DNA from: a virus
IMG/VR virus record: IMGVR_UViG_3300009177_000112
Location: 1 to 24,359 of that record
DNA: 24,359 nucleotides
Direction: 5' to 3' (one strand)
In this document: piece by piece, positions 12,286 through 14,703 of the stretch
Numbering within the stretch: the stretch's first letter is position 1
Layout: each line of letters starts with the position of its first letter
The notes under the pieces: model-generated
What the model was told of the DNA's origin: nothing
Seen by the model: only the letters and a program-made list of their open reading frames with translations
The model's database searches: none
Made by a program: the position numbers and the translations under genes

Positions 12286-13281
12286 ATGGCCTCTCCCGGT
12301 CAAAGCACGCTGTTTAACAGCTTTACGGAACTGGTATCGACCACTTACCGTAATCACTCGAAAGAAGTAGCAGACAACGTTTCCAAGCACAATGCTCTGT
12401 TCCGCCGTATGACGGAAAAAGGCAAGATTCGCTTGGAAGATGGTGGTCTGTCCATCGTCCAGCCTCTGGACTACGCGAACAACTCGACCTATCAGCGCTA
12501 TTCCGGCTTTGATGTGCTGAACATCAATGCTGTAGATGTGCTGTCGGCAGCCGAATACCCATGGCGTCAAGTCGCCGTGAACGTCGCTGCTTCCGGTCTG
12601 GAAATTCGTACCAACTCGGGCGCAAACCGCATTATCAACTTCGTGAAAGCGAAGATCAAAAATGCTCAGCGTTCCATGGCTAACGGTCTGTCGGTCGATA
12701 TCTATTCGGACGGCACCGCAGCTAACCAGATCAACGGTCTGCAAGCGCTTATCGCCGATGCTGGCACCGGTACTGTGGGTGGTATCAATTCCACCACTTT
12801 CCCATTCTGGCAAAACGCCGTGCAATCTGCTGCTGCTCCGATCCAAGGTGGTGGTGCGATTACTCCAGGCCCAACCACGATTGAATCGCTGATGCTGCCG
12901 ATGTACATCCGCCTGACTCGTGGCATGGATCAACCTGACATGATCGTGATGTCCGATGACTACTTCGCGTTCTTCGAGCAATCGCAGACTTCGCTGAAGC
13001 GTTATTCGAGCGATACCGGTCCTACCACTGGCACTGCTGGCTTCGTGAGCCTGAAATACAAGAATGCTGACGTGTTCTTCGATTCCTCGGGTGGTATCCC
13101 AGCACAGCACGCCTATTTCATCAACACCGACTACATGGATCTCGTCGTGCATCAGGATGCGAACATGGAAATCATGCCAGAACTGCGCTCGGTGAATCAG
13201 GATGCAATCGTGATCCCTATTCTGTTCCAGGGCAATCTGTGCGTTTCTAACCGTTTTTTGCAAGGGGTCATGAAGAGTTGA
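12286..13281 (+). CDS. Major capsid (coat) protein (331 aa)
   Basis: AAAGGAG stands 7 bp upstream, one of the strongest sites in the window, as expected for the most abundant product. DNVSKHNALFRRM, EDGGLSIVQPLDYANNSTYQ, RYSGFDVL and YPWRQVAVNVAASGLEIRTN form the conserved N-terminal half of the coat family in BPP-1-like short-tailed phages. MDQPDMIVMSDDYFAFFE and the C-terminal DAIVIPILFQGNLCVSNRFL are also typical. The fold is expected to be HK97-like. The codon choice is more GC-rich than in the following HNH gene. Confidence 0.9.
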   Translation: MASPGQSTLFNSFTELVSTTYRNHSKEVADNVSKHNALFRRMTEKGKIRLEDGGLSIVQPLDYANNSTYQRYSGFDVLNINAVDVLSAAEYPWRQVAVNVAASGLEIRTNSGANRIINFVKAKIKNAQRSMANGLSVDIYSDGTAANQINGLQALIADAGTGTVGGINSTTFPFWQNAVQSAAAPIQGGGAITPGPTTIESLMLPMYIRLTRGMDQPDMIVMSDDYFAFFEQSQTSLKRYSSDTGPTTGTAGFVSLKYKNADVFFDSSGGIPAQHAYFINTDYMDLVVHQDANMEIMPELRSVNQDAIVIPILFQGNLCVSNRFLQGVMKS

Positions 13282-13289
13282 GCAGGGCG

Positions 13290-13298
13290 TGTTAAAAT
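13290..13298 (+). promoter_or_regulatory. Candidate extended -10 promoter of the HNH gene
   Basis: TGTTAAAAT fits TGnTATAAT with a single mismatch in the hexamer. No useful -35 is present at 16-18 bp. The predicted start, about 7 bp downstream (near 13305), falls inside the left arm of the hairpin that masks the start codon. Confidence 0.45.
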
Positions 13299-13329
13299 AT
13301 GGCGTTGTTCATTTTATGGAGAACGCCAT
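13299..13329 (+). promoter_or_regulatory. Hairpin hiding the ribosome binding site and AUG of the HNH gene
   Basis: ATGGCGTT (13299-13306) is the exact complement of AACGCCAT (13322-13329). The right arm includes the first two bases of the start codon at 13328, and the Shine-Dalgarno GGAG (13318-13321) is held in the loop next to the stem. Read-through RNA from the head genes would form it. RNA starting at about 13305 would not. Confidence 0.6.
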
Positions 13330-13981
13330 GAATTATCACGATTTGATTGGGCAGCGATTCGGTTTGCTTTTGGTTGTTGGTATAGAGAGAGAAGCAGGCA
13401 AGAACGTCATGCCATTGATGGCATGTCAATGTGATTGCGGTAAAAAATCTACACCACAGCCTTATACTCTGCTTCGAGGAACCACTAAATCATGTGGATG
13501 CCTACAAATTGCGAAAGCAACGAAGCATGGGCAAGCGTATGGGAAAAACGGCAGCAAGACTTATATGGCATGGTCGCAAATGAAAGCTAGATGCGATAAT
13601 GAGAGAAATAAGTCATATGCTGATTATGGTGGCCGAGGAATCAGCTACTGCGAAAGCTGGAAGAATTTTGCAAACTTCCTTGCTGATATGGGTGAAGCGC
13701 CAATTGATCTAAGTTTGGATCGTATTGATAATTCGCTAGGTTATTCGAAGGAAAACTGTCGTTGGGCTACGTCTAAACAACAAAGCAATAATCGACGGAA
13801 TACTAGGATGATCGAATATCAGGGCAAGAAATGGCCTAAGCAGGAACTAGCAGAAGAATTTGGCATTAGCGCCTCTACGTTGATGAGCAGATTGCGAAGC
13901 GGTTGGCCAATTGAAAAGGCTCTGATTCATCCTGTGAATCTTTTGAAGGCATCTAAACGAATTAAAGGAGTCATCTCATGA
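13328..13981 (+). CDS. HNH homing-endonuclease-like protein, free-standing (217 aa)
   Basis: ATG 13328 is chosen for GGAG 6 bp upstream; longer starts at 13289 (GTG) or 13316 lack a site. It has three parts. Residues 5-60 are a DLIGQRFG module with a cysteine cluster (C33, C35, C37, C56, C58), a zinc-binding N-terminus common in phage HNH proteins. Residues 78-157 hold YADYGGRGISYCESWKNF and DRIDNSLGYSKENCRWAT plus Q/N-rich NNRR, the HNH-type core of this family. Residues 162-205 are a NUMOD-like DNA-binding unit (EYQGKKWPKQELAEEFGISA, then RLRSGWPIEKAL). It probably nicks or cuts DNA and spreads itself. It separates the coat gene from the next head gene, and its last codons contain that gene's AAAGGAG site. 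Confidence 0.82.
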   Translation: MNYHDLIGQRFGLLLVVGIEREAGKNVMPLMACQCDCGKKSTPQPYTLLRGTTKSCGCLQIAKATKHGQAYGKNGSKTYMAWSQMKARCDNERNKSYADYGGRGISYCESWKNFANFLADMGEAPIDLSLDRIDNSLGYSKENCRWATSKQQSNNRRNTRMIEYQGKKWPKQELAEEFGISASTLMSRLRSGWPIEKALIHPVNLLKASKRIKGVIS

Positions 13982-14703
13982 CAACCGCAGCAAATAACAC
14001 CGCCGTTGCCGGGTTTTCCGCCGTAGGCAACTGGTTCATTCCTGACAATATCCAGCGCCATCCTCTGGGCACGATCATGTCTGTGATCGATCCTTTCTGG
14101 GGTGGCCAGGAAATTGTCTATTGCAGCTTCCCTGCATCCACCGCTCTGCGCGTTGGCACTTGCGTTGTTTATGACAATGCATTCAGCGCTACTGCCGTCC
14201 CGAATACTGCCAACCTGGGCCAACCTCTGGCCTTTGTGCTGAACTCTGTGCCTAGCGTGGCAGCGGTTCAATATGGCTGGGTTGTATTCGGCGGCAAGAT
14301 TCCGGCTTACTCCAATGCTTCCGTCGCAGCGAATGCGGCAATCGGCATTGTGGCTGCTGGCCAACTGGGTGCAAACTCGGCTGGTAAGCAGGTGCTGGAT
14401 TCCAAAGTTCAAGCAGCCGCTACGACTACTGTTGCCAAAAGCAATGTGGTTACTCAGAACGGCTCGCCGAAACTGTTGGCATCGAATACTGACGGCTGGT
14501 TTGTCGGTATGCCAATCTCCGGTACTGGTATCCCTGCTTCGACCACTGTGTCGTCGCTAGACCCAGATAACCGCACTGTGGTGATGAGTGCCAATGCAAC
14601 TGCAACTGGCGCTGTGACTGTGACGGGCACTTACAATGACGGCACCAGCTTCTGGAACGTCCTGTATGTGAATCGTCCTCTGGCACAGGGTGCGATTACT
14701 TAA
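13978..14703 (+). CDS. Head decoration or minor head protein (241 aa)
   Basis: The ribosome binding site AAAGGAG is within the end of the HNH gene and the start overlaps its stop (ATGA). The product is Ala/Thr/Val-rich and beta-rich, with DNIQRHPLGTIMSVIDPFWG, then GQEIVYCSFPASTALRVGTC and a final domain (GMPISGTGIPASTTVSSLD) of the kind found in particle surface proteins. Its place right after the coat gene, strong ribosome binding site and following terminator suggest an abundant head component. It would sit directly after the coat gene but for the HNH insertion. Confidence 0.7.
   Translation: MTTAANNTAVAGFSAVGNWFIPDNIQRHPLGTIMSVIDPFWGGQEIVYCSFPASTALRVGTCVVYDNAFSATAVPNTANLGQPLAFVLNSVPSVAAVQYGWVVFGGKIPAYSNASVAANAAIGIVAAGQLGANSAGKQVLDSKVQAAATTTVAKSNVVTQNGSPKLLASNTDGWFVGMPISGTGIPASTTVSSLDPDNRTVVMSANATATGAVTVTGTYNDGTSFWNVLYVNRPLAQGAIT

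Follow-up and report, generated by a model that had tools for sequence, protein, structure and literature searches.

The window, the whole 24,359-nt stretch of DNA analyzed here, is an IMG/VR virus record in which an HNH-type gene lies directly 3′ of the coat gene. The features of this locus are:

12286..13281, + strand: major head (coat) gene (phrog_9953 major head protein, E 1e-77), the presumed origin of read-through RNA
13290..13298, + strand: extended -10 box TGT-TAAAAT of the sigma70 type, TGTTAAAAT, score 8.5
13299..13306, + strand: left arm of the leader hairpin, ATGGCGTT, predicted to be mostly missing from RNA begun at about 13305
13304..13306, + strand: predicted transcription start, placed 6-8 nt downstream of the -10 box
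13308-13312/13316-13320, + strand: upper helix UUCAU/AUGGA of the minimum-energy fold, in which GGA of the Shine-Dalgarno (SD) sequence is also paired
13318..13321, + strand: SD sequence GGAG of the HNH gene, as read from the sequence
13322..13329, + strand: right arm of the hairpin, AACGCCAT, taking in the AT of the start codon
13328..13981, + strand: HNH-type endonuclease gene, 217 aa (phrog_374, E 1e-61), start codon 13328-13330
13965..13970, + strand: AAGGAG within the end of the HNH gene, the SD serving the next gene (ATG 13978)
13978..14703, + strand: next late gene, whose ATG at 13978 overlaps the HNH stop and which directly follows the coat gene in relatives without the HNH gene

No terminator-like site was found on the + strand between the coat gene and the HNH gene, so transcripts of the coat operon are expected to read on into the latter; no known RNA family was matched in the window. 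The letters of the leader run, in order, TGTTAAAAT-ATGGCGTT-g-TTCAT-TTT-ATGGA-g-AACGCCATG. An earlier note on this DNA had described a perfect 8-bp inverted repeat that includes part of the AUG, and we located it exactly as claimed, at 13299-13306 and 13322-13329. This repeat is, however, only the core of a larger one, with 25-nt arms at 13288-13312 and 13316-13340 that are 76% complementary. For the segment 13279-13345 the folding energy is -23.8 kcal/mol, whereas dinucleotide shuffles give -12.1 +/- 2.5 (z -4.7), and none of 200 shuffles was as stable. The note had also pictured GGAG as looped out; this fails for GGA, which the upper helix pairs in the minimum-energy fold, leaving the SD half paired. 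The further proposal that a shorter RNA would free the site is borne out in part. By computation, opening the ribosome-binding site (RBS) costs about 12 kcal/mol with the left arm present and 6.4 kcal/mol once the 5′ end of the RNA lies beyond 13302, but the release in the window is partial, as UUUAUGG and CCAUGAA remain free to pair in the shortened RNA and 6.4 kcal/mol is left. The extended -10 box was likewise where the note had placed it, its last base directly preceding the left arm. A generic promoter scan did not list this box because that scan demands a -35 element. Chance is rejected as the origin of the hairpin-promoter layout.

We think it likely that the HNH leader is a two-state expression switch, shut on read-through RNA and open on RNA from its own promoter, which keeps the nuclease off in the flood of late coat RNA. 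As judged from the fold, transcripts continuing from the coat gene would contain both arms, fold over the SD and AUG, and be poorly translated. The sigma70-type extended -10 would start an RNA at about 13305 from which most of the left arm is missing, and the RBS would be freer. The gene's own promoter would then yield a small amount of nuclease, probably early in infection or constitutively, and the gene would be off while the late coat-operon RNA is synthesized; this timing is expected because the box is sigma70-like while the surrounding operon is late.

To place the window among its relatives, we searched IMG/VR. Searching with the coat protein gave 43 loci, searching with a coat alignment gave 80, and all searches together yielded 150 loci with the coat gene, many of which have an HNH gene immediately after it. 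Behind this same coat gene we found 34 non-redundant HNH genes (less than 85% identity), and as controls we used 115 other genes of the same loci, 245 HNH relatives located elsewhere and reduced in the same way, and dinucleotide shuffles. A stable stem covers the SD and start codon on upstream-started RNA in the window and in all 34 HNH genes behind the coat gene. The median RBS opening energy on read-through RNA was 14.3 kcal/mol for the 34 genes, compared with 6.2 for the HNH genes elsewhere and 6.3 for the 115 other genes; the median -10 scores of these three sets were 6.7, 3.2 and 2.9, and shuffles gave 4.3. When both a relief of at least 5 kcal/mol and a -10 score of at least 5 were demanded, 24 of the 34 genes qualified as against 1 of the 115 other genes (Fisher p 9e-19; this and the other p-values overstate the number of independent events, because genes of the same subgroup share ancestry). 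The corresponding control rates were 5.3% of the 245 HNH genes elsewhere and 1.5% of shuffles.

The two elements are also in register. Across the 34 genes the position of the -10 tracks the start of the left arm (Spearman 0.68, p 1e-5), and the distance from left-arm start to -10 end lies between -6 and +2 in 59%, compared with 21% of shuffles and 16% of other HNH genes. In the window and in 25 of the 34 genes, the promoter is placed such that the predicted start would remove the left arm: a -10 with a score of at least 6 has its +7 start inside that arm in those 25, versus 78 of 1360 shuffles and 15 of 245 other HNH genes. About a quarter of the 34 genes have no strong -10 in the right register under the scoring used here. 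When boxes were chosen by their hexamer only, so that TGn played no part in the choice, TGn preceded the -10 in 17 of 34 genes against 2.3 expected; a -35 element, never used in choosing the -10, lay at 16-18 nt in 12 of 34, against 8% (p 7e-6). Permuting the -10 positions among the 34 genes lowered the mean relief only from 8.1 to 7.5, and 116 of 2000 permutations were as high; this is a weak test, the effect being small because the leaders are all similar in size, and the register test complements it.

These figures bear on a hairpin-only account, in which the stem reduces translation of read-through RNA (or governs the stability or processing of the mRNA) and the -10-like box has no promoter activity, having arisen as a by-product of A+T-rich intergenic sequence. 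The hairpin signal, at 34 of 34, is indeed stronger and more uniform than the -10 signal, and the -10 boxes in A+T-rich arms are partly forced by the arm's mirroring of the start codon: in several genes with the -10 inside the arm, the letters TAT/CAT are dictated in this way. Nevertheless, the -10 scores exceed those of shuffles and of other genes, the TGn and -35 enrichments do not depend on how the -10 was chosen, and TGnTAnAAT stays constant while the arms change among the nearest four genes. A hairpin with no outlet would, moreover, leave the gene nearly silent. We therefore regard a hairpin acting without a promoter as unlikely, and a switch in which the promoter opens what the hairpin shuts as the better account.

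The arms of the hairpin differ widely among the relatives. The same layout is written in different letters in L211 (TTGTATCATATGGCCTCC..GGAGGGCCATATG), L034 (TTGACA-17-CATAATATG..CATATTATG), L419 (TGGTATAATACCTTCTC..GAGGGTATTATG), L290 (TGGTACAATACATACTC..GAGTATGTATG) and L214 (TGCTATCTTCCTCCTAT..ATAGGAGG). The HNH proteins nearest to that of the window, in L007, L228 and L369, are 67-71% identical to it, and their genes keep the TGnTAnAAT box. Among these four leaders, compensatory changes were found at pair 6 (C-G to U-A), pair 7 (G-C to A-U) and pair 9 (U-A to C-G). The covariation of the arms that the earlier note had anticipated is thus seen as compensatory changes in the nearest four genes and as wholly different arms across the 34. 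The layout, although present in this phage as the note held, is not special to it; it is general for HNH genes at the coat junction.

The nearest four genes also allow a role for translation of the leader itself to be weighed. A ten-codon ORF at 13299-13331 (ATG GCG TTG TTC ATT TTA TGG AGA ACG CCA TGA) ends in an ATGA overlap with the HNH start, and ribosomes translating it on read-through RNA could unfold the hairpin and reinitiate at the HNH ATG that overlaps its end, in which case the hairpin would tune rather than block expression. Counted from ATG to ATG, the spacing is 29 nt in the window, 32 nt in L007, 29 nt in L228 and 26 nt in L369, and each value is 2 mod 3. Yet one shared frame in four cases is expected by chance about 1 time in 27, and the left-arm ATG is a consequence of mirroring CATG. 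The ORF of L369 stops after three codons, the upstream AGGG is 11 nt away and too far for a good SD, and the frame is absent beyond the nearest four genes (for example in L211, where the distance is 25). Such coupling is accordingly very unlikely.

The palindrome could, alternatively, act in the DNA, either as a binding site through which the HNH protein represses its own gene or as the end of a mobile block, its overlap with the RBS being secondary. Autorepression of this sort has a precedent in I-TevI, which binds to an operator overlapping the I-TevI promoter (PMC2988022), and the palindrome does lie at the edge of a mobile block. However, the arms are unrelated even among genes with 70% identical proteins (L209, L211, L301) and still always end on the SD/AUG; the loop length varies; and G-U pairs in several stems (L220, L369, L398) preserve RNA pairing but not DNA symmetry. 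The likeness between leader and empty site, through which an operator or homing-site reading was tried, showed no signal beyond chance (score 19; 95% of shuffles 19). We consider an element of this kind highly improbable, and return to the leader as an RNA switch.

Close relatives without the HNH gene show what the junction looks like when empty. In L003, L004 and L036, whose coat proteins are 96-97% identical to that of the window, the coat stop is followed at once by the next gene's TAAGGAGAAAGACATG or a close variant of it. These phages lack the whole of the block 13282-13977, an outcome in favour of the note's reading, and the promoter, hairpin and HNH gene thus come and go as one. Where the HNH gene is present its end supplies the SD of the next gene; in the empty site coat-TAAGGAGAAAGACATG stands in its place. 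What the present analysis shows is the layout itself, its repeated appearance in unrelated letters, the placing of the -10 together with the left arm, and the empty sites. Occupation of the junction by an HNH gene usually replaces an intergenic stretch of 10-15 nt, and the junction (window 13282-13977) is a hot spot that holds HNH genes of 8-10 tree groups among the relatives. At one locus (L005:2422-3801) no stop codon closes the HNH reading frame ahead of the next late gene, into which it continues in frame; that next gene apparently starts at a TTG in the same frame (3073) and has an AAGGAG of its own.

The encoded protein belongs to the HNH superfamily by sequence (phrog_374 HNH endonuclease, E 1e-61), and its AlphaFold2 model has a beta-beta-alpha arrangement (E129-132, E144-147, H149-154). 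Fold and sequence searches of Pfam, NCBIfam and the PDB gave no significant match. The canonical catalytic His of HNH proteins is absent, Arg132 standing at the expected place in 38 of 38 aligned relatives, and N143, N155, Y139, H67 and Cys 35, 37 and 56 are invariant in these 38. To judge from these residues, the Arg-for-His protein would have either an unusual active site or be a non-cutting protein. The presence and absence of the block fits homing into an empty allele.

Four phages of the coat group carry insertions inside the coat gene itself. Group I introns (RF00028) lie at differing places of the gene in L034 (3060-3355), L290 (2105-2342), and L032 and L033 (2279-2966). Those of L034 and L290 have no long ORF, and in both phages a free-standing HNH gene immediately follows the coat gene, an arrangement like that of collaborative homing; the intron ORF of L033 is GIY-YIG-like by eye. 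A 759-nt insertion in L211 and its duplicates (893-1658, at about coat residue 69) had no Rfam match at the gathering score and is possibly another intron. Because L034, L290 and L211 each combine a coat-gene insertion with an adjacent free-standing, leader-bearing HNH gene, the coat gene may be the putative cleavage target of the HNH protein.

The earlier note had likened the leader to that of T4 I-TevI, and the precedent is as it stated: early I-TevI RNA is masked at the RBS, and an internal late promoter opens the gene (PMC2988022). In T4 I-TevI, I-TevII and I-TevIII (in the td, nrdD and nrdB introns), as here, a hairpin over the SD and AUG forms only on upstream-started RNA, and an adjoining promoter omits the left arm (PMC2988022). 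These systems use T4 late (or middle) promoters against early upstream RNA, whereas here a sigma70 extended -10 lies behind a coat gene; I-TevI and I-TevII are, in addition, intron-borne GIY-YIG enzymes, while the present genes are free-standing and belong to a different HNH family. T4 segB and mobE of Aeromonas phage Aeh1 are likewise free-standing; in each of these homing endonuclease genes a hairpin sequesters the RBS and a promoter lies next to it (PMC2988022), but they belong to T4-like phages and have T4 late promoters; segB is of the GIY-YIG type and mobE splits nrdA. T4 e and soc share the masking of the RBS on a long early RNA and its release on a short late one (PMC3014915), but are ordinary late phage genes with T4 late promoters, not mobile nucleases.

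T4 late or middle promoters were not found in the window group. Since the boxes are TGnTATAAT-like and a -35 element is enriched, the promoters appear to be of the sigma70 type, and the timing is probably the reverse of that of I-TevI. The device is best read as one of the I-TevI/II/III, segB and mobE kind, but with sigma70-type promoters. We found no such dual-control case outside T4-like phages in the open-access literature searched, in line with the note's suggestion that the logic had not been described there, and the present genes number in the dozens; it is the T4-type late promoter that does not carry over. Dual control of homing endonucleases had been described in a few T4-like cases. 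At one coat junction we now find dozens, with unrelated arms, and they permit a statistical study, in simple phages, of why mobile nucleases are silenced on read-through RNA and when they are active. The two-part layout also offers a recognizable sequence pattern by which switches of this sort could be sought in other phage operons.

We then examined cultured phages with HNH genes of the same family. The layout was found in two, both with the HNH gene directly behind head genes, so that the same logic extends outside the coat group. In Shewanella phage 3/49, gp25 (HNH) follows the major head gene gp24 with TGTTACACT-ATCCCC..GGGGAT, and opening falls from about 10 to 2.8 kcal/mol; the -10 box was chosen by its place and is not the top-scoring one. 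In Acinetobacter phage AP22 and its relatives the layout is TGATATATT-CACCACTT..AAGTGGTGATATATCATG, with opening falling from 17.8 to 6.1 kcal/mol. The HNH genes of D3, BcepMigl, EFDG1, Javan46, PEi21, PfAn1 and others lack the layout, and mostly stand in replication or recombination surroundings or directly abut the preceding gene. A late location is rejected as a sufficient cause, given that no such leader precedes the HNH gene of Pam5 or several HNH genes that, in other phages, follow portal, head-closure, terminase or tail genes. Cultured phages with a related coat (MW202489, Mx8, Mx9, ppBjS10J-1, BUCT555) have no annotated HNH gene behind it.

In protein trees the 34 genes scatter into 8-10 groups among leader-less relatives, requiring 8-10 changes, which suggests that the leader likely arose repeatedly; a single clade for the 34 is not rejected (p-AU 0.095). 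Our broader reading, held tentatively and at somewhat under even chances, is that free-standing HNH genes in the head-gene operons of several unrelated phage groups evolved this switch independently, using host sigma70 promoters and a timing opposite to that of T4 (open early or constitutively, shut under the dominant late coat RNA). If true, such independent evolution would mean that mobile nuclease genes lodged within strongly transcribed operons arrive at this switch time and again.

Two further inverted repeats were noted. A perfect 8-bp repeat, CATGCCAT-tg-ATGGCATG, lies inside the HNH coding sequence of the window at 13408-13425. On a 125-kb phage contig (L270, about 2400-2510), the SD of an HNH gene lies in a very strong hairpin that costs 25 kcal/mol to open, and a -10 sits where the left arm ends.
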